A DNA stretch of 64,000 nt from Psychromonas sp. SA13A (lineage in GTDB: Bacteria; Pseudomonadota; Gammaproteobacteria; Enterobacterales; Psychromonadaceae). Positions 12,319 through 44,129 of this stretch are shown here, piece after piece; the stretch's first letter is position 1, and each line of letters begins with the position of its first letter. The DNA lies in contig NZ_WTKU01000012.1 of NCBI RefSeq assembly GCF_011378715.1, positions 1 to 64,000 on the forward strand, written 5' to 3'. Made by a program: the position numbers and the translations under genes. Under the pieces are notes generated by a model. It saw only the letters and a list, made by a program, of their open reading frames with translations, made no database searches and had not been told where the DNA came from.

Positions 12319-12412
12319 ATGACAAAAAATAACCACATTCTTTATACTACATTTACTAAACCACTTTAATTTGTAACCTCGGAAATTGCATTTTAAGGTG
12401 GTTTAATTTTTT
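12319..12412 (+). promoter_or_regulatory. Candidate add promoter followed at once by a terminator-like leader hairpin
   Basis: The candidate -35 is ATGACA (12319-12324) and the -10 is TATACT (12343-12348), 18 bp apart. Transcription would start near 12355. A 13-bp stem, TAAACCACTTTAA (12357-12369) with TTAAGGTGGTTTA (12393-12405, one wobble), begins there and is followed by six T (12407-12412). This is the form of an intrinsic terminator at the 5' end of the add message, about 30 nt before the add start. It may be an attenuator, or a hairpin that protects the 5' end. Confidence 0.55.
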
Positions 12413-12441
12413 ATCATGGTTTCAAATACAGAGGAATGAAT

Positions 12442-31889: not shown

Positions 31890-32831
31890 ATTACCGTTAC
31901 TTATCAATTTAGAATTCGTTTTAATATTTCTAGTAAGGGGAATATTACAGGGGATGTGAAAAAGTATAGGTTTAAATTACCTAGCGGTGAAAATGCAGTC
32001 TTAGTCGCTATTGATGCCAAAACTATTTCAGAGTCCACTCGATTTTTTATCCTTTCTGGAGGTTTTTATAGTGAAAACGATGCTTTATTAGCCGGCACAA
32101 CAATGAAAAATTCATTATTATGTTTTGCGGTTAAATGTCGTATAGGTATTGATTTGGGAAAAAACAAAGCAAGCTGCTTTTTAGGGGATAGCATTAGAGA
32201 GGCCCAATTTAGAGAAAGTGGAATTAGACTAGAGCCAGACGTACATGGGCTTAGTGTTTACTCAGAAGAGCACCCTATCTCTTATGTTTTTTCACCCAGA
32301 ATGAATAGCATTAGAAATGCTAAAGACTGCTCTCTTTTTTCTAATGAAATTTGCTCTTTATTTAGCAGTGGTAAAAAAATTAGTAATAAAGTTCTTTTAG
32401 CAATGGAATTAGTTACAGCTTCATTTTTTGAAACGAGTTCGCGTTCTAAATTTTTAACTTTAGTACTTGCAGCTGAAGCTATTCTCGTCATTGATAGTAA
32501 GAATGAAAAAGTTAAAGCAGTAGTTAAAGAGCTTATTTCTGTGGTAAGAAGTACAGAGCTTAGTGAATCTGAACAAAATTCTATAGCAGGATCATTAAAA
32601 TGGTTAAAAAAAGATTCTATATCTTTAAGTTTAAAAAAAATGGCTATTGAATACTTATCTGAAAAGCAATACAACGGGGTAGATTCACATATTTTTATTA
32701 AAGAATGTTATGACGCCAGAAGTAAATTAGTACATGAAGGGGGAGTGGATGAAAGCAAATATAATATTAGTAGATTGGCGTCAGCCATGGAAGTTTATAT
32801 GTCTGATATGTTGTTAGCAATAATAGAGTAA
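31890..32831 (+). CDS. HEPN-like protein with probable ATT start
   Basis: Not a named family for me. The C-terminal part ends in ECYDARSKLVHEGG, an R-x4-H motif of the kind found in HEPN domains (ApeA-like), which are often RNases or partners in stress and defence. The frame stays open upstream of the first usual start (GTG 31956, 291 aa, poor ribosome site) to a stop at 31872. The added residues TVTYQFRIRFNIS read like a normal N-terminus. GGGAG lies 6 nt before an ATT at 31890, which would give 313 aa. ATT starts are rare (infC is the classic case), so a lost start codon is the alternative. It lies in an accessory-looking stretch, with no obvious partner. Confidence 0.65.
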   Translation: MTVTYQFRIRFNISSKGNITGDVKKYRFKLPSGENAVLVAIDAKTISESTRFFILSGGFYSENDALLAGTTMKNSLLCFAVKCRIGIDLGKNKASCFLGDSIREAQFRESGIRLEPDVHGLSVYSEEHPISYVFSPRMNSIRNAKDCSLFSNEICSLFSSGKKISNKVLLAMELVTASFFETSSRSKFLTLVLAAEAILVIDSKNEKVKAVVKELISVVRSTELSESEQNSIAGSLKWLKKDSISLSLKKMAIEYLSEKQYNGVDSHIFIKECYDARSKLVHEGGVDESKYNISRLASAMEVYMSDMLLAIIE

Positions 32832-33086
32832 TTACTATTTGTCAAAAGAGGTTGTATGTTGGGCTACAAGTGCACAAATATTTAGTCGTGTACAGCATCT
32901 AACTTTGCGCAATATTTTAATTAACCTATTTATCCGTTGAATAGTTGAATTGGTTCCTATTAATAGTAGTTTTGGACACCCACAAACTTTGACCAATATT
33001 CAGGCAAATTATGTGAACATCACCGTCAATGGATGGTTTAAGCATTAATCAATTCAAGTTGATTTTCAGTATTAATATTTGTGGGC

Positions 33087-33422
33087 ATGTTGCGTTATGT
33101 GCTGTTTTCTCAAGGAGGTTGGACTGACGTGGTATCTTTAATCATAATGGCTTCAATGATTACTTTGTTTTTTACGATCGTCGCGCTGTTCTTTAAATTG
33201 AAGTATGTATTAAGCCTTTATGTCATTGGTAATATATTGGTATTTTTTATATTAGATTGGGTTTTACATCCTCTACAAAGTAGCTATATGTTTATTTATA
33301 GCCAACTACCAGCATTAATTTTATCTGCAATTGGGATTTATATCAGTCATAAATTTCAACCCCATGTGATTAATAAAGTGAAGTGTATGCAGTTAAAGTT
33401 GTTCTGTGGTTCAAAGGAATAA
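33087..33422 (+). CDS. Small hypothetical membrane protein
   Basis: 111 aa from ATG 33087 (a GTG at 33081 is also possible; no strong ribosome site). Three hydrophobic segments are visible: VVSLIIMASMITLFFTIVALFF, YVLSLYVIGNILVFFILDWVL and FIYSQLPALILSAIGIYI, then a basic tail. I do not recognise it. It is alone between the HEPN-like gene and a repeat-rich region, and could be a remnant. Confidence 0.5.
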   Translation: MLRYVLFSQGGWTDVVSLIIMASMITLFFTIVALFFKLKYVLSLYVIGNILVFFILDWVLHPLQSSYMFIYSQLPALILSAIGIYISHKFQPHVINKVKCMQLKLFCGSKE

Positions 33423-33480
33423 ATAACTGGGATCAGATTAAAATTAGATAGTTAAATCTCTAAACTTAGTTTTTGATAAG

Positions 33481-34010
33481 TGTGGGTCGGCTACGCTCAT
33501 CATTTAGAATAGATATTTCCAGCTTTGTATTTCGCCCTAGCGGCGTGTTACTTTCTTTTACTTGCCCAAAATAAAGTAACCAAAGAACTTGACTGTACAG
33601 GCACCCAAGCCATCTTTTTGATCTTGTATTATTCAACGTCTTTTTAACGCACTACTCAAAACAGCACATCCATGTGCTGATTTGAGCTATACCTGACGTG
33701 CTGTTGAACATAGTACGTGAGTAGGAGATGTCCATATATGGAAACTAAGAATTCCAACTAATTAATGAGTAAAGTCGACGCTCATTGTGGCTACGTCCAT
33801 TCCCCCGTTATGTTTTTCTGGCTCAATGAGTGCCTTTAGCAAGTTTAGGCATGGATGCCGTTGCTAGTTCAGCTCGATACAGGGATGTGGAGTATGAACG
33901 GTGCGTTAAGAAGGTAATCATTGAGTCAGATTAAAAAAACTATCGGGGCCAGTCTCTTTGCTTACTTTCTCTGCTGGCAGAGAGAAAGTAAAGTCGGCGA
34001 CATGGCGAAA
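33481..34010. repeat. Degenerate MITE-like repeat element
   Basis: Both ends carry stems built on TTACTTT: TTACTTT / AAAGTAA around 33550-33580, and TTACTTTCTCT / AGAGAAAGTAA around 33963-33992. The left end (GGCGTGTTACTTTC ... TTGCCCAAAATAAAGTAACC) resembles a dispersed repeat I have seen in many proteobacteria. A perfect CAGCACAT / ATGTGCTG hairpin lies inside (near 33664-33681). No transposase is present. The exact limits are uncertain. Confidence 0.5.
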
Positions 34011-34156
34011 TCAAAGTTAATAAATACCCAAGTGATAGGATGAGCAAAGACGAACGGTAAATGTGATCCCCATAGGTCACTCTATTTCACTACATAATAA
34101 AGTAATGCAATGATGAGTTGAATCTACCGGCTTAGACATAAGTGAAGCATGTTTTT

Positions 34157-34428
34157 TAAGTCCTCCAACTTAAAAGCCTGCGTTCTAGCACACCAACAAA
34201 CCAATTTATAATCACGTCAAGAACAGATAAAATAAATACACGTCAAAAAATATTTATAAATCATTGGGTTACCGTGCTTTAGATACATGGGCGCCTATTC
34301 CATAACAGTCCAAAGCTTTGCCCCATGTGAATATAACCTCTATCCACATTATCAATAGCTGTATAGGTCGTACCAGGGTCGGAGTGAAAGAGACTAATGC
34401 GATTAAGGCATACTTTGAACCTTCATTG
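34157..34428 (-). pseudogene. Decayed partial copy of the ABC permease gene at 46620-47426
   Basis: Bases 34157-34306 match 46621-46771, and 34307-34428 match from about 46897 to 47022, the 3' half of the intact minus-strand permease gene. About 125 bp are deleted at the junction, and many scattered substitutions are present. Long identical runs remain, such as CAACAAACCAATTTATAAT and CTCTATCCACATTATCAATA. It cannot encode a working permease. The copy must come from duplication followed by decay. Confidence 0.88.
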
Positions 34429-34501
34429 TCCTAGTTGTGGACATCAATTCCTTTATTAAGTATTCCGAATCAAGCTATCTTATCGCTGAATAGTTAAATT
34501 G

Positions 34502-34885
34502 CTAATCCTGATCAATCCAATATATCACTACTTCTTGCTTTCCCCATTGGTTTGCTTTTTCGACATCCTCTCCCATGTAGATATCAATTTTATTGGTCCA
34601 ACGTTTATTCATTTTATCCAGTACTGTGTATTTTCCATCAAATCCTTCGATTCTTACTTCTTGTTGGTGAGTTAATCCCAATTTGATTAAGTCTCTTGAT
34701 ACTGCGATTGATTTCATTCCTGGTTTCAAGGTATCACCCCATGCCGCTAGGTTTGGAGTTGAATCAGTTTCACCAACACTTGACGTATAGGCACTTGCCG
34801 TTACCGTTAAAGATTGTTCTGCTTCAGCACAACTCATGAGAGAGAGTATGCCCATTGCAGTTATAAGGTAAAAGCTCGGCTTCAT
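34502..34885 (-). CDS. Exported 3D-domain protein
   Basis: 127 aa from ATG 34885 (AGGGA upstream). The signal sequence MKPSFYLITAMGILSLMSCAEA could be a lipoprotein signal (LMSC) or be cut after AEA. The rest fits the 3D domain, a double-psi beta-barrel linked to cell-wall lytic enzymes: LTVTASAYTSS, LAAWGDTLKPGMKSIAVSRDL and the aspartates of DKMNKRWTNKIDIYMGED. It may bind or cleave peptidoglycan. It begins 50 bp after the DUF2914 gene stop, on the same strand. Confidence 0.82.
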   Translation of the reverse strand: MKPSFYLITAMGILSLMSCAEAEQSLTVTASAYTSSVGETDSTPNLAAWGDTLKPGMKSIAVSRDLIKLGLTHQQEVRIEGFDGKYTVLDKMNKRWTNKIDIYMGEDVEKANQWGKQEVVIYWIDQD

Positions 34886-34935
34886 AAAATGTTGTCCCTT
34901 GTAAAAATCAAAGTAAGTAAACCTAGTAAGCAAAG

Positions 34936-35760
34936 CTAATAAGTAAATCTATTGACGGCGAGTATTTCATCCTGCCCATTTTTTAGTTCTACTTTCCATT
35001 GTCCGTGCATTGTTGGTTGAATAAATTTACTTGAATGGCTTCTCCAACGATCACCGTTAATCGCTAATTTAACCTTTGCAATCTGCTGACCATCCATACT
35101 CCAAATATAATAGAGTGTGGTATCTTTTAAATCATTAACTTCAGAAAAGGCATACACGGTTGCGATATTATCTTTGAAAATAATGTTATCGATCTTACCA
35201 TTAGGCTCATTTTCTATTACTGATGAGGTAATAACAAAACGCGCGACATTACTCGACAGTATTTCAATGTCAGATTGAGAGAATATAGCAGCATTGTCTG
35301 TATTTTCTATGGTTGAATTAGTCGAGGGGGCCGATACTGACTCAGTTTTCGTTAAACTTTCACTTTTATCTTGATAACTATTGCTGGTAGATTCCGTGAT
35401 TTTATCATTTAACAATTCATCTGTTTGTGCTGTTATTTTAGCTTTTTCGCTTTCAGCTTTGTCTGATATTGTAATGGAGGAGGGTGACACTTCATCTTTT
35501 TCTACCGCGCTAGGAGTTTTGTTTGTTGGTGTTAACGCTGCGGTACTCACTACCGGTATTGCCGTTTTTTTATCAGAGAGATTATTTTGCTCGGAATAAT
35601 ATCCACTCGCAAAAATAAATGACCAAATTGCAATGATAACAAGCAACAAAACCCCTAAAATCCTTCCCCAATGATAACCATGAGTGTCTTCGTCCTGCGA
35701 TATATTGCTCTGTCTTCGATTAAAGTTAACACGGATGGTAAATTTTTCCGATTCCTTCAT
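34936..35760 (-). CDS. DUF2914 membrane protein
   Basis: 274 aa. A basic cytoplasmic N-terminus, one membrane helix near residues 33-52 (ILGVLLLVIIAIWSFIFASG), a Ser/Thr/Lys-rich linker (about 60-160), then a DUF2914 domain (ATVYAFSEVNDLKDTTLYYIW, GDRWRSHSSKFIQPTMHGQWKVEL). The domain should be periplasmic. Function unknown. It is paired with the 3D-domain gene downstream, so a cell-envelope role is likely. Confidence 0.85.
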   Translation of the reverse strand: MKESEKFTIRVNFNRRQSNISQDEDTHGYHWGRILGVLLLVIIAIWSFIFASGYYSEQNNLSDKKTAIPVVSTAALTPTNKTPSAVEKDEVSPSSITISDKAESEKAKITAQTDELLNDKITESTSNSYQDKSESLTKTESVSAPSTNSTIENTDNAAIFSQSDIEILSSNVARFVITSSVIENEPNGKIDNIIFKDNIATVYAFSEVNDLKDTTLYYIWSMDGQQIAKVKLAINGDRWRSHSSKFIQPTMHGQWKVELKNGQDEILAVNRFTY

Positions 35761-36074
35761 ATTGTTATTCTCACTGAAGTTTGAGAAATAGATGGTTGTA
35801 TTTAAAATGCGCTTTAAATTCAGCTATTATTTCGGGTTGTTTAAGTATGATTTGCTTTTAATTTTGCTTTTATTTTTCTGATTTATGCTAATGCCTGCAT
35901 TCCCCAGTGTGCTGAACCATCTGATGTTGCCATTAAATATTGCGTTCAAGCACTGCCATCAAAAGTTGTTATCAAACGTTGCCATAGGTGGGTATTTTTT
36001 TAAATATCTATAATTGTATATTTGCCGTTTTTTAAGTGCTTCAGCTACATTTATTATTTATTACTTTTGGGGTG
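35761..36074. other. Gap between DUF2914 gene and guaC terminator
   Basis: I see no gene. Short words such as GTTGCCAT recur (near 35924 and 35984), without a regular pattern. Confidence 0.35.
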
Positions 36075-36104
36075 AAGAAGGGTATCACTACGAATACCCT
36101 TCTT
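36075..36104 (-). terminator. Terminator-like hairpin after guaC
   Basis: A perfect 11-bp stem, AAGAAGGGTAT / ATACCCTTCTT, with an 8-nt loop, about 40 nt after the guaC stop on the minus strand. No long T run. Confidence 0.7.
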
Positions 36105-36144
36105 TGAACTCCATAGCCCATAACGACTTGGCTCAGATAGGACG

Positions 36145-37188
36145 TTATTCTTTACCGTAAACGTTATTTTCTTGTTCTTGCACGCGAATAAACGTAGTGC
36201 GTTTAGTTAGTTCTTTGAGCTTAGATGCACCTACATAAGTACAGGTTGAACGAACACCACCCATGATATCTTCAATGGTTGCATTAACGCTACCTTTATA
36301 GGAAAGCAGTACTGTTTTTCCTTCGGCAGCACGGTATTTAGCGACACCACCAGAATGTTTTTTCATTGCGCTTTGTGAAGACATGCCATAAAACTTCATG
36401 AATTGCTTACCATCCTGTTCGATGATTTCACCGCCGCTTTCTTGGTGGCCTGCGAGCATTCCACCTAACATTACAAAATCAGCACCACCACCAAAGGCTT
36501 TTGATACATCACCGGGGCAACTACAGCCGCCGTCACCGATGATCATGCCACCTAAACCATGAGCAGAATCAGCACATTCAATAATGGCAGACAGTTGAGG
36601 ATATCCAACGCCTGTTTTTACACGGGTGGTGCATACTGAGCCAGGTCCAATACCTACTTTCACAATATCAGCGCCTGCTAAAATAAGTTCTTCAACCATG
36701 TCTCCGGTGACTACGTTACCTGCACTGATTACTTTGTCTGGGAACTCAGCTCTAACACGCTCAACATAATCAACGAGGTGTTCAGAATAGCCATTTGCAA
36801 TATCAACACAGATAAAAATGAGATCATCTGTTAATGCCATAATCTGTTTGGTTTTTTGAAAGTCAGCTTCAGAAGTCCCTGAAGACACCATCATATTCTT
36901 TAATACATTGGCATCAGTTTTATTAATAAAAGTAGCCCATTCTTCAACACTATAATGTTTGTGAATAGCCGTCATTACATTATGGGAAGCCAGCGTTTCA
37001 GCCATCTCAAAAGTTGCAACTGAGTCCATATTAGCGGCAATAATGGGCACGCCTGACCATTCACGTCCACTATGTTTAAAAGTATAAGAGCGAGTTAGGT
37101 CTACTTGAGAGCGACTTTTAAGCGTGGATCGTTTAGGACGAAAAAGTACATCTTTAAAGCCTAACTTTAAATCTTGTTCAATACGCAT
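36145..37188 (-). CDS. guaC: GMP reductase
   Basis: 347 aa, the exact length of E. coli GuaC. It reduces GMP to IMP with NADPH, moving guanine nucleotides back to the IMP pool. Signatures: [11 protein letters not shown], the catalytic cysteine loop [12 protein letters not shown] near 186, [28 protein letters not shown], and [14 protein letters not shown] precedes the start. An 80-nt leader separates it from a strong terminator-like hairpin. Confidence 0.97.
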
Positions 37189-37268
37189 GATTATTCCTTT
37201 TGAGATCAGCCATTAATAATAATGCCTATGTTTTGATCGGCTAAAAATCAAAACACTAAAAAATGGGC

Positions 37269-37344
37269 AAAAAAAACCGGGGCATTTGATATTTATCAAA
37301 GGCCCCGGTTTTCAGTATTGTACGGTGTAAATTAATTATGGCAA
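37269..37344 (-). promoter_or_regulatory. Candidate guaC promoter and terminator-like leader hairpin
   Basis: On the minus strand, TTGCCA (37344-37339) and TACAAT (37322-37317), 16 bp apart, make a good promoter with a start near 37310. The RNA would begin in a hairpin: AAAACCGGGGC (37273-37283) pairs with GCCCCGGTTTT (37302-37312), and inside it TTTGATA pairs with TATCAAA. Eight U follow (37276-37269). This has the full form of an intrinsic terminator placed before guaC and facing it. No purine riboswitch core is seen upstream. Confidence 0.6.
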
Positions 37345-37663
37345 CTTATAACATGCTATTAAACAACTTGTTAATTCATTAATTTGAAGGAAGTAACCTA
37401 TATTTACTGCAAAATAATAACTTTTATGAACTAGCATAGCATCATTTTGGATTAAATTTTTCCTACTTTACTACTTTGGTTTTCACCTCTTTTATATGTA
37501 ATGTCCTTCTCTAAATCGAATTTTTATTAATAGTACTGCTTAATACTCAGCGTCAGTAAGTAAAAACTTTAAGCATGATAAAGGTGATGAACTTCATATT
37601 ATTTAAAATGAAGTTAGCTCGTTATTGATCTTAAAATATAGATGTGAAAAGCTTACCATGTTG

Positions 37664-37681
37664 TGTGAAAAGGTTTTCACA
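37664..37681 (+). promoter_or_regulatory. Operator for the sucrose repressor
   Basis: TGTGAAAAGGTTTTCACA has perfect 8-bp arms (TGTGAAAA / TTTTCACA) around GG, 24 bp before the scrA start. A half-matching TGTGAAAAGC lies at 37643-37652. The form fits LacI/GalR regulators, and ScrR is encoded at the end of this cluster. Confidence 0.7.
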
Positions 37682-37705
37682 TTTTTTGTTTACGTGAGGT
37701 TACAA

Positions 37706-39055
37706 ATGAATAATGACATCGCAGGATCGTTGCTAAAATCATTGGGCGGCAAAGAAAATATAAGGGCTATGGAACACTGTTCAACTAGATTACGAATTGT
37801 GGTTGATGACAACAACTTGGTGGATCCCAAAGCAATTAAAAAAGTAGAAAAAGTAGCGGGTTACTTTTTTCAATTTGGCCAACATCAAATTGTTATCGGT
37901 ACGGGGTTGGTCAATGAAATTTATAGTATTTTGAAAAATATGGTCGGTGAGACTGACGATAATGCAAAAAGTGCAGCTTACGATGACTTAAATGTCTTTC
38001 AAAAATCACTGCGTGCTTTAGCAGATGTGTTTGTACCATTGATACCCGTTTTAGTAGCTACTGGCCTATTTATGGGCTTACGTGGATTTGCTCAGCAATT
38101 AGGTATGACATTTTCAAGTGACTTGCTTGTTATGTCACAAATGATCACTGATACCGTTTTTATATTTCTACCTGCTCTTGTTGTGTGGTCTGCGTTTAAT
38201 CGATTTGGTGGTACACCGGTTATTGGTATTGTGCTTGGTTTAATGTTGATAGCCCCGATGTTGCCAAATGCATGGGACGTAGCGAGTGGGAATGCCGAAG
38301 CGCTTACATTTGGTATATTTAAAGTGCAAGGTTTTCAAGGGACAATTATTCCTGCCCTTATCGTCGGTATTTTTGGGTCGTATGTAGAACGTTGGATTAA
38401 ATCCTGGATGCCATCTGTAGTTGCCCTTGTATTCACACCATTTTTAACCATTATTATTGCCGTGTTTGCTGGGTTGTTAGTTATTGGCCCTGTATTTAAT
38501 GTTGTAGAACATGGGGTAATGATTTCAGCTGATGCGATTATTAACTTACCATTTGGCTTAGGCGGCGCTATTTTTGGTGGTATTCAACAAGTATTGACAG
38601 TGACAGGTCTGCATCATTCATTAATGGTTGTCGAACTTGACTTCCTTTCTTCCATTAAAGGTGTGAATCCGCTCAATGCTTTCATTACCGCTTCGATGGC
38701 TGGGCAAGCTGGTGCAGCTATCGCTTACACCATGACCATTAAAGATAAAAAAGAAAAAGCGCTTAAATACTCTTCGATAATACCTTGTTTCTTTGGGATC
38801 ACTGAACCGCTACTTTTTGGTGTCACATTAACAAACTCAAAAGTATTTATCTCTGGCATTATCGGTGGCGCAATTGCAGGTACATTTGCCGCTATTACAC
38901 ATATTGCTCCAGCCGTAATGGGCGTTACTTTTTTACCCGCAATACCTGCGTATCTAGGTCATGGGCTAGGAATGTATTTAGCAATGATTGTTATCGGAAT
39001 GGGAAGTGCAATGATTTTCACTAAAATATTAGTAAGACCAAATACGAATAGATAG
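37706..39055 (+). CDS. scrA: Sucrose-type PTS EIIBC component
   Basis: 449-aa inner-membrane permease that takes up and phosphorylates sucrose. The EIIB domain is at the N-terminus, with the phospho-cysteine in MEHCSTRLRIVV near residue 26. The EIIC domain (about 90-445) has many helices and the typical HHSLMVVELDFL and GITEPLLFGVTL stretches. No EIIA domain is attached, as in enteric ScrA, which borrows EIIA-Glc. ATG 37706 follows GAGGT. An earlier start (37625) would run through the operator. Confidence 0.93.
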   Translation: MNNDIAGSLLKSLGGKENIRAMEHCSTRLRIVVDDNNLVDPKAIKKVEKVAGYFFQFGQHQIVIGTGLVNEIYSILKNMVGETDDNAKSAAYDDLNVFQKSLRALADVFVPLIPVLVATGLFMGLRGFAQQLGMTFSSDLLVMSQMITDTVFIFLPALVVWSAFNRFGGTPVIGIVLGLMLIAPMLPNAWDVASGNAEALTFGIFKVQGFQGTIIPALIVGIFGSYVERWIKSWMPSVVALVFTPFLTIIIAVFAGLLVIGPVFNVVEHGVMISADAIINLPFGLGGAIFGGIQQVLTVTGLHHSLMVVELDFLSSIKGVNPLNAFITASMAGQAGAAIAYTMTIKDKKEKALKYSSIIPCFFGITEPLLFGVTLTNSKVFISGIIGGAIAGTFAAITHIAPAVMGVTFLPAIPAYLGHGLGMYLAMIVIGMGSAMIFTKILVRPNTNR

Positions 39056-39060
39056 GGGGG

Positions 39061-39088
39061 ATGGCTCACTATTTAATGAGCCATTTTT
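39061..39088 (+). terminator. Intercistronic terminator-like hairpin scrA-scrK
   Basis: A perfect 8-bp stem, ATGGCTCA / TGAGCCAT, with an 8-nt loop and five T, just after the scrA stop. It may lower expression of scrK and scrB relative to the permease. Confidence 0.7.
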
Positions 39089-39147
39089 CTATCCATAGAT
39101 ATTTTTATCAACCAATAAATAGTTAATATATTTATAAAGGATCTAAC

Positions 39148-40086
39148 ATGAAAGTGGTTTGTATTGGTGAGTTGCTGATCGATTTTATTTGTACAGATAC
39201 AAATAAGCAGTTGCATGACAGCGTAAATTTTATCAAAAAAGCCGGTGGTGCACCTGCTAATGTTGCGGCAACCGTCAGTAAGTTAGGAGGTAAAGCAGAG
39301 TTCATCGGAAAAGTGGGAAATGATCCTTTTGGTGTTTTTCTAAAGCAGGTGTTAACTGATGCTAACGTCGGAACTAAGGGGGTTTTATTTGATGCTGAAC
39401 ATCCAACTACATTAGCTTTTGTTTCGTTAACAGATGACGGAGAGCGAGACTTTGTGTTTAATCGAGGTGCGGATGGAGAGCTTACTCGGACTGATGTCTT
39501 GATAAAAACTAATCAGTCAGAAATTTATCATTTTGGCTCAGCAACAGCTCTTTTGCCTAGTGTTACAAGAGATACTTATATTAGTGTTATGGAAGAGTGT
39601 TCTTCAAAAGATGAGTTTGTTTCATTTGATCCTAATTACCGTTCAGCACTTTGGTTGAACGAAGATGCGTTCAAAACAGCCGTTTTACCCTGTTTAAAGT
39701 GGACACATTTGTTAAAAGTCAGTGAAGAAGAGTTAGTTATTTTAGGGGGAAACAATGATAGCTCTATTGGGCTTGAATATTTACATGGTCTTGGTTGCCC
39801 TTTTATTCTGGTGACACTTGGAAAAAAGGGAACATTAGTTTCTTATAATAACCTACATAAAATAGTACCCAGTATTCCTATCAAATCTATTGACTCTACG
39901 GGGGCAGGAGACGCTTTTATTGGCGCAATATTATATCAACTAGCAAAACATAGAAAAGTGAGTTTTGATCATTCTGAGTTATGTCAAATGGTGACGTTTG
40001 CAAACAAAGTAGGTGCATTAACTTGTACTCAAATGGGGGCAATATCTGCCATCCCAACATTAGACCAACTAAAGGAAGTAAAATAG
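39148..40086 (+). CDS. scrK: Fructokinase, PfkB family
   Basis: 312 aa. It phosphorylates the fructose set free from sucrose 6-phosphate. PfkB signatures: GGAPANVAATVSKLGG near residue 32 and the C-terminal DSTGAGDAFIGA with the catalytic Asp near 250. AAAGGA precedes the start, and scrB follows 1 bp after the stop. Confidence 0.93.
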   Translation: MKVVCIGELLIDFICTDTNKQLHDSVNFIKKAGGAPANVAATVSKLGGKAEFIGKVGNDPFGVFLKQVLTDANVGTKGVLFDAEHPTTLAFVSLTDDGERDFVFNRGADGELTRTDVLIKTNQSEIYHFGSATALLPSVTRDTYISVMEECSSKDEFVSFDPNYRSALWLNEDAFKTAVLPCLKWTHLLKVSEEELVILGGNNDSSIGLEYLHGLGCPFILVTLGKKGTLVSYNNLHKIVPSIPIKSIDSTGAGDAFIGAILYQLAKHRKVSFDHSELCQMVTFANKVGALTCTQMGAISAIPTLDQLKEVK

Positions 40087-40087
40087 T

Positions 40088-41530
40088 ATGGTTGATTTGC
40101 TATTAAAGGCAGATAACGCTGCGAGTGCTGCTCTGTGTAATATTGAAGATCCATTTCGTCTTAAATACCATATAAGCCCAGCCGTTGGTTTGCTCAACGA
40201 CCCTAATGGTTTTATAGAGCATAAAGGTATATATCATTTATTTTATCAATGGAATCCATTTGAATGCGCACATGGAAGTAAGTTTTGGGCACATTGTATC
40301 AGTGATGATTTAGTTAATTGGCGTTTGTTGCCTACAGCAATGGCACCTGATCAGGATTATGATAAAAATGGTTGTTATTCTGGTAGCGCGTTTGTTGATA
40401 ATGAAAAGTTGATGCTATTTTATACTGGAAATGTAAAAAATAAAGATGGAACAAGGCTGTCAACTCAATGTATCGCAGAAGCGAATAGCTTAAATGACAA
40501 GTTTATAAAAAAGGGGCCTGTGATCGATAGTCCTCCTGCAGGTTATACTGCACATTTTCGTGACCCTAAAATTTGGCATGATAATGGGGTTTGGTATTGT
40601 GTGATTGGCGCACAAACGATCGATAAAAAAGGGCAGATATTATTATATCGTGCCACCAAGTTAAATGATTGGGAGTTAATGGGGCCATTAGCTGGTAGTG
40701 GGCTTAATGAATTGGGTTATTTTGGTTATATGTGGGAATGCCCAGATTTCTTTGAACTCGATAATAACCACATTTTGATATGCTCACCTCAAGGGATAGA
40801 AAAGGAGGGGGATAAGTACCACAATAAATATCAATCAGGATATTTTATAGGCTCATATAATATACAAGCTCATGAGTTTAAGCATAATGAATTTATAGAA
40901 CTTGATCGCGGTTTTGAGTTTTATGCTCCGCAAACGACTACTGACTCAAAGGGACGGCGCTTAATGAGTGCGTGGATGGGAATACCCGAAGAAGATGAGC
41001 AACCCACATTAGCGTATAACTGGCTACATGCCCTAACACTGGTTCGTGAGCTTAAAATTAAAAATGGTCGTTTATATCAGTACCCAGTTGAAGAATTAAA
41101 ACAGTTACGTAAAAACCAATTGAGTTATCAAGACATTCTAGTTAGCAATTCACAATCATTTACTCAAATACACACACCTTGCTGTGAAATTGAAATCGAA
41201 TTAAATGACATTCAGGGGAAATGTGGTGTTCATTTTAATGCTTATGACCATTATCATATTGATCTTACATTCAACCCTAACAATAGCAAATTAAGTTTAG
41301 ACCGAAATTCAACACCAAATCAATCAGGTGTACGCAGTTGTACATTGCTATCAAAGCAAAGTTTAAAGCTGCATATGTTTCTAGATAAATCATCTATTGA
41401 AATATTTGTTAATAATGGAGAAGAAGTTTTTACTAGCCGTGTGTTTCCATTAAGTGAAGCTCGTAATATTAGTATTTACTCCCATGGATCTTGTACAATA
41501 GCAAGATTTGATAAATATGACTTATCATGA
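40088..41530 (+). CDS. scrB: Sucrose-6-phosphate hydrolase, GH32
   Basis: 480 aa. Splits sucrose 6-phosphate into glucose 6-phosphate and fructose. The GH32 nucleophile motif is LLNDPNGFIEH near residue 36, FRDP is near 158, and the acid/base is in MWECPDFFEL near 216. No signal peptide, as expected for a cytoplasmic enzyme behind a PTS. It shares an operon with scrK and scrR. Confidence 0.95.
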   Translation: MVDLLLKADNAASAALCNIEDPFRLKYHISPAVGLLNDPNGFIEHKGIYHLFYQWNPFECAHGSKFWAHCISDDLVNWRLLPTAMAPDQDYDKNGCYSGSAFVDNEKLMLFYTGNVKNKDGTRLSTQCIAEANSLNDKFIKKGPVIDSPPAGYTAHFRDPKIWHDNGVWYCVIGAQTIDKKGQILLYRATKLNDWELMGPLAGSGLNELGYFGYMWECPDFFELDNNHILICSPQGIEKEGDKYHNKYQSGYFIGSYNIQAHEFKHNEFIELDRGFEFYAPQTTTDSKGRRLMSAWMGIPEEDEQPTLAYNWLHALTLVRELKIKNGRLYQYPVEELKQLRKNQLSYQDILVSNSQSFTQIHTPCCEIEIELNDIQGKCGVHFNAYDHYHIDLTFNPNNSKLSLDRNSTPNQSGVRSCTLLSKQSLKLHMFLDKSSIEIFVNNGEEVFTSRVFPLSEARNISIYSHGSCTIARFDKYDLS

Positions 41531-41539
41531 GGTAACAGG

Positions 41540-42568
41540 TTGACGAAAAGTATTTTGAATCTAAAAGATATTGCTAATCTAGCGCAAACATCATCTTCCA
41601 GCGTATCAAGAGTGATCAACTCTTCTGGTTATGTAAAAAAAGAAGTACGTGATCGTATCCAAGTCATACTCGATGAAACAGGGTATCGGCCAAACGCATT
41701 TGCTAAAGCACTTCATAGCAAAAAAAGTCTTACAATTGGTGTTATTTTGCCAAAAATTAATGCCACTTCATCGGGTGAAAATGTTGCAGGTATTGATGAT
41801 TATTTTTCAAAGCAAGGTTATAGCGTTATTCTCGGCAACACAAACCACTCTGTAGATAAAGAATTTGAATATCTTGACCTGTTTAAAGAGAAGCAAGTTG
41901 ATGGGATTATTTTAATTGCAACAACACTCACCCCTGAACACCAGTCTCGTATTAAACGACTTCATATTCCTATTGTTATTATGGGACAAAAATCGTTAGA
42001 TGGAACGCCATGTGTTGTATTTAATGAAATAGCAGCGGCTCAAGAGTTAACCAATTATTTACTCGATAATCATCATCATAATATTGGTTATATAGGGGTT
42101 AGCGAGGAAGATGTCTCAGTAGGAGTTGAGCGTAAACAAGGGTATTTGAATGCACTTGAAAAACATGGCATAAAGAAAGATGAACGGCTACTCAGCATCG
42201 GGGCATTTTCTGTTATAAGTGGCTATGATGCTTGTCAGCGTATATTCGAACAATTTGGTTCTGCTCCTGATGCAATATTTGCTGCAAACGATAAGATGGC
42301 AATTGGCGCAATAAACTATATTTTGGATCAAGGCCTTTCTATACCTGGAGATGTTAGCGTATGTGGGGTAGGTGGTGGAGTGTTTGCCCAACACTACAAC
42401 CCAAAGATAACCTCTCTTTTTTATGACTCTAATTCAGCCGGAAGAGCAGCTGCAAACTTGTTATATCGATTGATACAGAGTGACGAAAAAGATTTCTTAA
42501 AAAATCATATTGAATTCGTTCAATATAAGTTAGAGATCAGAAATAGTGTCAAATTAAACAGTAATTGA
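41540..42568 (+). CDS. scrR: LacI-family sucrose regulator
   Basis: 342 aa with a TTG start after GAGG. N-terminal LacI helix-turn-helix (NLKDIANLAQTSSSSVSRVIN) and hinge (RPNAFAKALHSKKSLTIGVIL), then a periplasmic-binding-like sensor domain. As the last gene of scrAKBR it probably represses the cluster through the palindrome at 37664 until a sugar (fructose or its phosphate in known ScrR) releases it. It would also regulate its own synthesis. Confidence 0.9.
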   Translation: MTKSILNLKDIANLAQTSSSSVSRVINSSGYVKKEVRDRIQVILDETGYRPNAFAKALHSKKSLTIGVILPKINATSSGENVAGIDDYFSKQGYSVILGNTNHSVDKEFEYLDLFKEKQVDGIILIATTLTPEHQSRIKRLHIPIVIMGQKSLDGTPCVVFNEIAAAQELTNYLLDNHHHNIGYIGVSEEDVSVGVERKQGYLNALEKHGIKKDERLLSIGAFSVISGYDACQRIFEQFGSAPDAIFAANDKMAIGAINYILDQGLSIPGDVSVCGVGGGVFAQHYNPKITSLFYDSNSAGRAAANLLYRLIQSDEKDFLKNHIEFVQYKLEIRNSVKLNSN

Positions 42569-42841
42569 TTATTCGAAGTGATTACAATTTGTTGTCCGCC
42601 TAGATCAGCAATTAGTTTTGTCGTGTTATATACCCGTTAGCTATCAAAATGTATTATTCATTCGCTCACTAAGATGACAAAACAAGGCGTAACATGATGA
42701 TAATGGCTAGTCTTTATCGAATGTTACAATTTAGTATTGGTTTTCTAGCGAGTGGCCGATACACTGCGCTGAATTCGTCAATATACGTAAAACATACACA
42801 TAAAAACGACACATTAAAAAGTGTTTAAAATAGGCATACTC

Positions 42842-43390
42842 ATGAGCTCAGCGTTACAAGAACAGCAAGAAATTATCTTACAATATTTAAATACAACACA
42901 TTATATTGATTTTGATTCACCCACGGCAGAACAGAAACAAGAAGCTAAATATAAAATTGGTAAAGCTTGTAACAAAGCGAGAGAAATACTGTGTAGTGAT
43001 GAAGCTTTTCTAGATTGGGTTTGGTCAAATGTTATCGATGAGTGTTCAACAGATATTGAAGAAGTAACACCTAATACGTTGATTTCTTGGCGTATGCTGC
43101 CTAAATTTGGCACATTAGCGCAATGTGAAGTCGTAGGTTTTACTCACGTGGCTAAGTTACTGTTGGATAAAAATGCTGCAATGAAAGCGGAAGTGTTGGA
43201 AATTATTGCTAATAATGATCCTGAAACAGCTAAAAAATTAATTAAAAAAGTACTTAAGCCAACCATTGATTTCATGCCAATTGTCGCTGACAAAAAAAGC
43301 CTAGCGGATACCGTTCACAAGGCTGATAAGTTATCAAAAGATGCTCTAGTTGCTTTGGTTAAAGCAATGCATCAACAAATGATTAAGTGA
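42842..43390 (+). CDS. Hypothetical protein, 182 aa
   Basis: I do not recognise it. ATG 42842 follows AGGCATACTC, a modest ribosome site. The protein is soluble, charged and probably all-helical, with three cysteines (GKACNK, EILCSD, DECSTD), a middle part VTPNTLISWRMLPKFGTLAQ, and a Lys-rich C-terminus (PETAKKLIKKVLKP). No signal peptide or membrane helix. It stands alone, with 273 bp before and 280 bp after. Confidence 0.7.
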   Translation: MSSALQEQQEIILQYLNTTHYIDFDSPTAEQKQEAKYKIGKACNKAREILCSDEAFLDWVWSNVIDECSTDIEEVTPNTLISWRMLPKFGTLAQCEVVGFTHVAKLLLDKNAAMKAEVLEIIANNDPETAKKLIKKVLKPTIDFMPIVADKKSLADTVHKADKLSKDALVALVKAMHQQMIK

Positions 43391-43411
43391 CCTCCTTGGG
43401 ATAAGCAAAAC

Positions 43412-43451
43412 AAGTCAACACCGTTCTTTTTAATAGTTTCTGTGTTGATTT
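43412..43451 (+). terminator. Weak hairpin after the 182-aa gene
   Basis: A 10-bp stem, AAGTCAACAC / GTGTTGATTT (one wobble), with a 20-nt loop, 22 nt after the stop. No T run beyond TTT. Confidence 0.4.
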
Positions 43452-43670
43452 ATCTTGGGATAACCGGTTATTACTTCATTAAACCGCTTTAAACTTCACA
43501 AAACTAGTGATGCCGTCTAATGTGCAATATAGCTTTATGAATTTAAATATGAATACGCTTTCATTATCCAGAATTGAGGTTAAGTAACCTCATTTCGAAT
43601 ACGTAAAGTGAGTAGTAGTGTTCTTTTCACATTAAGTTAAAAAGCAAAACTAGATATAAAGCATTTTCTA

Positions 43671-44129
43671 TTATTGAGCTGGTGGAATAGCGCCATGTGC
43701 TTTGGAGTGACGCATCACAACTAAAGTTTTAAAGTTTTTGACGCTATTATCCTTATGTAGCACTTGTTGTGTGAATTGATCGAAGGCTTCCATATCTGCT
43801 GCGATCACTTGTAAAACTAAGTCATAATCGCCTGTTACAAACCATGAGTCGATGATTTCTGGTTGTTTATTTATTCTGCTTAAAAATGCATTGACGATAG
43901 TGCTATGGTCTCTTTCCAATTCAACCAATAACATCATACTTAACGGCCAGCCCATATTTTTAGGTTTGATGATCGCCATCTCTTTTTCAATAACACCACT
44001 TTTGCGTAACTCTCTTACTCGACGATAACAAGCAGGTTCAGAGAGGCCAATTTGTGCTGCAATCTCAGCCATCGATGTCTTGGCATCTATTTGTAGTTGT
44101 TGAAGAATCTTAAGATCTATGTTGTCCAT
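43671..44129 (-). CDS. Lrp/AsnC-family regulator
   Basis: 152 aa. N-terminal HTH: MDNIDLKILQQLQIDAKTSMAEIAAQIGLSEPACYRRVRELRKSGVI. The C-terminal RAM ligand domain shows VTGDYDLVLQVIAADMEAFDQF. It is divergent from an RhtA-like exporter. Two identical-type palindromes lie between them, so it likely controls the exporter in response to an amino acid. Confidence 0.92.
   Translation of the reverse strand: MDNIDLKILQQLQIDAKTSMAEIAAQIGLSEPACYRRVRELRKSGVIEKEMAIIKPKNMGWPLSMMLLVELERDHSTIVNAFLSRINKQPEIIDSWFVTGDYDLVLQVIAADMEAFDQFTQQVLHKDNSVKNFKTLVVMRHSKAHGAIPPAQ

Follow-up and report, generated by a model that had tools for sequence, protein, structure and literature searches.

Why should a gene carry a complete terminator, pointing in its own direction of transcription, immediately behind its own promoter? 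The question is raised by guaC of Psychromonas sp. SA13A, which encodes GMP reductase, the enzyme that converts GMP to IMP, and which lies on the minus strand of the 64,000-nucleotide stretch of DNA analyzed here (the window). The initial annotation had listed TTGCCA and TACAAT on the minus strand with 16 nt between them, a hairpin, eight U residues, and guaC 80 nt further on, and all of these can be read in the sequence (Table 1). We call the hairpin P1.

Table 1. Features of the guaC leader, and other features mentioned in the text, by position in the window
Feature	Position	Strand	Basis or score
-35 box TTGCCA	37339-37344	-	sequence; 128 of 135 relatives' leaders have TTG and a spacer of exactly 16 nt
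-10 box TACAAT	37317-37322	-	sequence; all 135 leaders have a -10-like hexamer equally far from the stem
Predicted transcription start, A	37310	-	seventh base 3' of the -10 box, where the stem begins; predicted from -10 spacing
P1, putative 5'-terminal terminator hairpin	37275-37310	-	-22.5 kcal/mol; stem covaries across families
U8 tract, then G	37269-37276	-	sequence
Second leader hairpin, UGUUUUGAU-uuuuagccg-AUCAAAACA	37229-37255	-	present in MFE and centroid folds
Probable Shine-Dalgarno sequence AAGGAA	37194-37199	-	sequence
guaC, GMP reductase, 347 aa	36145-37188	-	PF00478, E = 4.5e-78; full-length matches in relatives
TwoAYGGAY RNA (Rfam)	33795-33955	+	49.9 bits (gathering score 43)
add leader	12355-12441	+	conserved 5'-terminal hairpin shortly after TATACT

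The product of guaC matches PF00478, the IMP dehydrogenase / GMP reductase family, and annotated E. coli guaC genes match L034, a Vibrio relative of the window gene, at 73.5%. P1 reads AACCGGGGCC-UUUGAU-AAAU-AUCAAA-UGCCCCGGUU. Its stem had been described as 11 bp long, which stands if the flanking A-U pairs are counted but not for the inner helix, which counts six to seven pairs according to the size taken for the loop. An intrinsic (Rho-independent) terminator is a G+C-rich hairpin directly 5' of a U tract, and P1 has this form; the predicted terminated RNA would run from 37310 to 37269 and be 42 nt long. The second leader hairpin is supported by its nearest relative, L003, in which one U-A pair has become C-G through changes on both sides. 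No ATG-started sense ORF of at least 20 aa begins between the predicted +1 and guaC in the window, and one TTG-started frame of 28 aa begins there. Going upstream on the minus strand, no ORF of 100 aa or more is met until 43671-44129, over 6 kb distant; minus-strand frames nearer the gene, in the stretch examined (37180-37720), are of only 21-46 aa.

Folding sets this leader apart from its shuffled counterparts. The whole guaC leader folds at -39.5 kcal/mol versus a mean of -22.4 for dinucleotide shuffles (z = -4.98; none of 200 equally stable), and P1 has the lowest energy among the 11 sites listed by a scan of the window for hairpins at or below -10 kcal/mol followed by a U-run of at least 6. 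A simple consensus scan of 32000-44000 found no excess of either promoter-like sites (37 versus 45.5 expected from shuffles) or terminator-like sites (7 versus 8.0), and it did not pick up P1, probably because the stem is broken by a mismatch. As sites of these kinds are no commoner in the neighborhood than in shuffled sequence, it is the comparison with other genomes that raises P1 above chance.

That comparison reveals a rigid relation between promoter and hairpin. We chose 135 distinct leaders with a loose pattern in which the gap was free at 2-8 nt, the U-run was at least 5, and the A at +1 was partly built in. Although the pattern left the spacing free, the distance from the end of the -10 box to CCGG is the same in all 135. 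With +1 set at the seventh base past the -10 box, the stem has its CCGG-like start at +3, and the first base of the stem is the predicted +1 in every leader. The U-run is 6-9 nt long, the predicted terminated RNA is 31-42 nt, and the base after the U-run is G in 130 of the 135. In an alignment across families, 90.5% of the cells of the P1 stem are paired versus 22-54% in slid controls, and 5 of 11 pairs show two-sided changes; the sequence differs between families, and the pairing is kept. One of five measures of covariation, the number of further pair types, was no better than in shuffles (9 versus a mean of 9.8). Some stems in the family labeled f25 are weak by prediction, reaching -9.8 kcal/mol in L130.

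How far does the element extend? Our first set of 88 guaC leaders combined 8 from the same genus, of which 24 genomes were searched, with 80 from named genomes, the best of 257 relatives; one row, L002, was left out of the leader sets as a paralogue. The -10 box, hairpin, and U-run are present in 87 of the 88, and the sole miss, L023, has just 64 nt of upstream DNA. All eight leaders from the same genus have the hairpin. The gene itself is patchy in the genus, being found at E <= 1e-100 in 8 of 24 genomes, one of which holds only part of it because the contig ends. We built a covariance model (R1) of the -10 box and hairpin from 22 hand-picked rows of several families (alignment A4). It matches the window at 37266-37322 with 60.2 bits, the window being one of its rows. 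In 394 genomes of the order it gave 74 matches at E <= 8e-9, many of which resemble rows used to build the model. All 74 lie 23-125 nt upstream of guaC and on its strand, so that strong matches to P1 are tied exclusively to guaC in these genomes; the next-best match (E = 8.5e-6) is about 1000-fold weaker, and 157 of the 394 genomes have some match at E <= 0.01.

Each genome with guaC in families f1, f21, f25, f7, and f12 has a strong match (8, 32, 32, 1, and 1 genomes, with the partial guaC of G018 counted from the same-genus search), and the search of related genomes proposed in the initial annotation recovers the same element in five families. Family f21 is Vibrionaceae, and f25 is probably Aeromonadaceae, as the P1 of an Aeromonas caviae record is identical to that of the f25 row L129. 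Model R1 scores P1 at 58.7 bits in this record and at 73.3 bits in one of Vibrio campbellii; the two records are not among the model rows, although their P1 sequences match such rows nearly or wholly. Allowing at most three mismatches, a P1 pattern is found in 101 of 121 Vibrionaceae genomes, with 2 matches in the control; several of the three-mismatch matches, for example in L214, sit elsewhere than in the guaC leader. The nearest upstream ORF of guaC is divergent in 51 and co-directional in 63 of 114 relatives, and because these ORFs differ and face both ways, the element travels with guaC.

Within the order, strong P1 is absent from 61 of 134 genomes with guaC. Inspection by eye of 60 leaders fetched from those 134 found the full element in 23 (f25, 17 of 17; f21, 4 of 4; f7, 1 of 1; f12, 1 of 1) and not in the other 37, two of which, the f10 rows L139 and L141, were read on the wrong strand. 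The E. coli guaC promoter looks similar (an A-tract, CAGTCTTGC, TATGAT) but has no hairpin. All three f6 leaders fetched (L158, L161, and L162) have a long ACCGGUGCG hairpin at the 5' end, where other families have the terminator; it lacks a U-run and so may have a role other than termination. In the wider class, R1 matched 1 of 369 genomes, the window's own. Rfam 15 has no match to the guaC leader in the window, where its only match is to TwoAYGGAY elsewhere; in the guaC leaders of 15 relatives, it gave 14 matches at E <= 5, none reaching its gathering score. Upstream of the -35 box of guaC, Vibrionaceae and E. coli (L090) have in common a block consisting of an A-tract and then a TCAG-CTTG type sequence, which suggests a conserved regulator site or UP element.

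A second purine gene of the window, add, had been thought to share the design of guaC, and this idea was not supported by the comparison. The hairpin of the add leader is a different RNA. It is kept in 7 of 17 same-genus add leaders (L179-L185; the fragments L196 and L197 were left out), with a nearly invariant inner part, UGUAACCUCGGAAAUURCAUUUUAAGGUGG, and only the window and its nearest relative have a U-run after it. Model R1 does not match the add leader, a weak test given that the model is sequence-specific, and Rfam has no match at the add leader of the window. A leader element common to both genes, in the sense of the same hairpin and a conserved U-run, is therefore not supported; the add hairpin is possibly a separate small cis-regulatory RNA.

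In the Vibrionaceae the leader has a further component. A second hairpin (P3) lies 3' of the U-run and has the same hexaloop as P1, CUGCCA. Of 33 leaders, 32 were kept in two alignments (21 and 11 rows; L020 was left out). Among the 21, all five pairs of the second hairpin have two-sided changes, 97.1% are paired, and CUGCCA is constant; the 11, mostly Vibrio, lend weaker support, with two-sided changes in two of four predicted pairs and no enclosing helix predicted around the hairpin. Rows L072 and L078 are misaligned in the outer helix of alignment A1. The P1 loop is CUGC(C/A)A in 91 of 96 distinct Vibrionaceae leaders. A script that scored letters, not pairing, found the same letters again downstream in 90 of these 91, and checking found them likewise in the last (L081); the five leaders with another P1 loop include one with CUGC(C/A)A downstream. 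On the script counts, with the relatedness of the leaders uncorrected, the association has a Fisher p of 7e-6. Both loops have changed to CUGCAA in L069 (Vibrio renipiscarius) and in L208, from another Vibrionaceae genus; L223 has CUGCCA in P1 versus CUGCAA in P3, and in L016 the P1 loop is altered, with the downstream CUGCCA kept. Photobacterium lutimaris and P. rosenbergii each have two copies of guaC on one contig (L050/L051 and L079/L084, about 5 and 12 kb apart), and CUGCCA occurs twice in all four leaders.

These paired loops likely point to a trans-acting reader in the Vibrionaceae. CUGCCA loops cannot pair with each other, and a shared outside reader is thus the simplest account. CUGCAA, found in two lineages, does contain the self-complementary UGCA, in contrast to CUGCCA, which is not self-complementary, and a contact between the P1 and P3 loops is conceivable where they are CUGCAA. 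In the window's leader the CUGCCA loop is absent and the second hairpin differs, so the argument for a trans reader is void for that lineage. The loop contains an alanine codon (GCC or GCA), an observation made of two data points. Anticodon mimicry of tRNA-Gly(GCC) was dropped because the closing pair covaries, making the loop a hexaloop, and because CUGCAA would alter the anticodon.

What, then, might the leader do for guaC? Observed directly are its anatomy, its conservation, the covariation of its stems, its exclusive link to guaC, and the shared loops. We consider it likely, judging from these sequences, that P1 is a promoter-proximal attenuator of guaC and that the amount of GMP reductase is probably set by the frequency with which RNA polymerase reads through P1. 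A sigma-70-type promoter would fire, and the first bases transcribed would fold straight into an intrinsic terminator. For many polymerases transcription would end there, with a 5'-blunt RNA of about 31-42 nt (42 nt in the window) as the product, and guaC mRNA would arise from read-through only. The start site, actual termination, regulation, and the signal behind it are what we infer here. The earlier suggestion that a sense-strand terminator in the guaC leader marks an attenuator or a source of short RNA is thus still the best account, and the terminator is conserved over five families.

The form of attenuation would be unusual. A terminator that starts at +1 is beyond control by upstream RNA, which breaks the usual logic of such devices: if the first base of the stem is +1, as predicted, no RNA lies ahead of it to hold a switch, whether antiterminator, aptamer, or leader peptide. 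An antiterminator-type attenuator has RNA ahead that can pair with the 5' arm, or a translated leader ORF. In all 135 leaders the predicted +1 leaves no such RNA, and in the window no ATG-started leader ORF of at least 20 aa was found; the common antiterminator envisaged in the initial annotation, if of the conventional type, has nothing to be made from. The set-point would be governed by a trans factor that meets the nascent hairpin or by the speed at which polymerase leaves the U-run. In the Vibrionaceae, a trans-acting factor would likely read the hexaloops common to the terminator and the second hairpin; in the window's lineage, read-through kinetics or another factor would set the level of guaC. 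A possible version, which we offer as a suggestion, is GTP sensing at the G added right after the U-run in most leaders, by which guaC would be raised when guanine nucleotides are plentiful.

The placement and conservation of P1 invite other explanations. A hairpin at the extreme 5' end could mainly shield guaC mRNA from decay, with the U-run terminating little or nothing. A stabilizer needs a stem at exactly the predicted +1, as found in all 135 leaders, and a terminator does not; moreover, the hairpin is kept without a U-run in the three f6 leaders fetched. A stabilizer has no need, however, of the 6-9 U residues that come right after the stem in all 135 leaders (5 or more were required by the pattern), and we regard this role as improbable. 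We think it quite unlikely that P1 is a stand-alone small-RNA gene whose product acts in trans on other mRNAs while guaC is transcribed mainly from a promoter further down. P1 is indeed very constant in the Vibrionaceae (11 of 13 stem pairs invariant in 21 rows), and small-RNA reads from V. cholerae fall, on one strand or the other, between guaC and VCA0198 at 214400-214531 (PMC3136459, Table 1). A tblastn search of plasmids showed no V. cholerae match among 30 of its 31 rows. Yet in at least five genomes only 23-24 nt separate the model match from guaC, too little for a second promoter to start there, and at the level of strong matches P1 is never away from guaC in the 394 genomes.

Two further explanations remain. 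An inverted repeat that overlaps +1 could be a DNA operator, a palindrome bound by protein across the start point. This seems very unlikely because the stem sequence varies between families while pairing is kept, because the U-run is strand-specific, and because the second hairpin of the Vibrionaceae has arms that vary freely and covary, while the loop between them is constant and not palindromic, a signature of RNA. Finally, P1 could end a transcript that comes from an upstream gene or, as the initial annotation had allowed, from an unannotated minus-strand unit, and the nearest upstream ORF is co-directional with guaC in the 63 relatives mentioned above. It is divergent in the other 51, however; the 6 kb upstream of guaC in the window hold no minus-strand ORF of 100 aa or more, and in all 135 leaders 6 nt separate the -10 box from the first base of the stem. 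We rejected the terminator of an upstream gene on ORF distance, ORF orientation, and this fixed -10 spacing, and a minus-strand transcript ending at P1 is scarcely credible in view of the same spacing and the same lack of a nearby ORF.

An attenuator of guaC at the predicted +1 has partial parallels. The attenuator of E. coli ampC is a terminator that sets basal expression; it lies no more than about 40 nt from the start and has no antiterminator RNA in front of it. The guaC terminator resembles it in both position and lack of antiterminator. The ampC terminator is common to the upstream frd operon, whereas P1 goes with a single gene throughout several families and has its first base at the predicted +1; in the Vibrionaceae it also has a hexaloop in common with the second hairpin. 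Riboswitch and leader-peptide attenuators also place a conditional terminator in the leader, but transcribe an aptamer or ORF before it, for which there is no room ahead of the guaC terminator. The ANTAR leader RNAs (EutV, NasR, AmiR) are described, in the available text, as having a terminator and two small hairpins with the same conserved hexaloop, in which the first base is A and the fourth G, the pair of hairpins lying ahead of the terminator or overlapping its 5' base (PMC3369931). The Vibrionaceae guaC leader, but not that of the window's lineage, is similar to the RNAs so described in having two hexaloop hairpins and a terminator; it differs in that the loops are CUGC(C/A)A, the first hairpin is itself the terminator, and the second comes after it. 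We rejected ANTAR membership on the letters of the loops (CUGCCA or CUGCAA, not A1/G4). Vsr217, a small RNA from the malK 5' UTR of Vibrio with effects in cis and in trans, is likewise a short RNA made where the leader of a metabolic gene begins; in the part of that paper available, its authors found no Rho-independent terminator at its 3' end (PMC8265627), whereas the terminator makes up the whole of the P1 RNA.

In addition to the V. cholerae reads, the available portion of a Spot 42 study lists a "putative IMP dehydrogenase/GMP reductase" gene, of unclear identity, at 2.13 in the deletion strain (PMC3295665). Among the matches listed by our literature search, no title or abstract opening describes the guaC leader, and none describes the control of guaC in these bacteria. 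Nor did the literature searched yield published Vibrio start-site or Term-seq tables for guaC, and a passage search in the main text of three RNA-motif papers turned up no mention of GMP reductase. The guaC leader is thus an architecture for which we found no Rfam 15 counterpart or literature description.

In general, this is a leader RNA of fixed architecture, unmatched in Rfam 15, that is present in genera with laboratory strains, Vibrio and Aliivibrio, and is directly testable. The paired CUGC(C/A)A loops predict an RNA-binding factor or a small RNA as their reader. A more speculative reading for the Vibrionaceae, to which we give low odds, is that the aborted P1 RNA, predicted there at 33 nt, serves as a decoy for the reader of the CUGC(C/A)A hexaloop. 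The reader would bind the terminator hairpin and, in the full-length mRNA, the second hairpin as well, so that each abortive event would titrate the factor off the mRNA; the window's lineage would keep a reader-free attenuator. If this is true, the leader would form a feedback circuit in which the failed transcripts of a gene control its successful ones.
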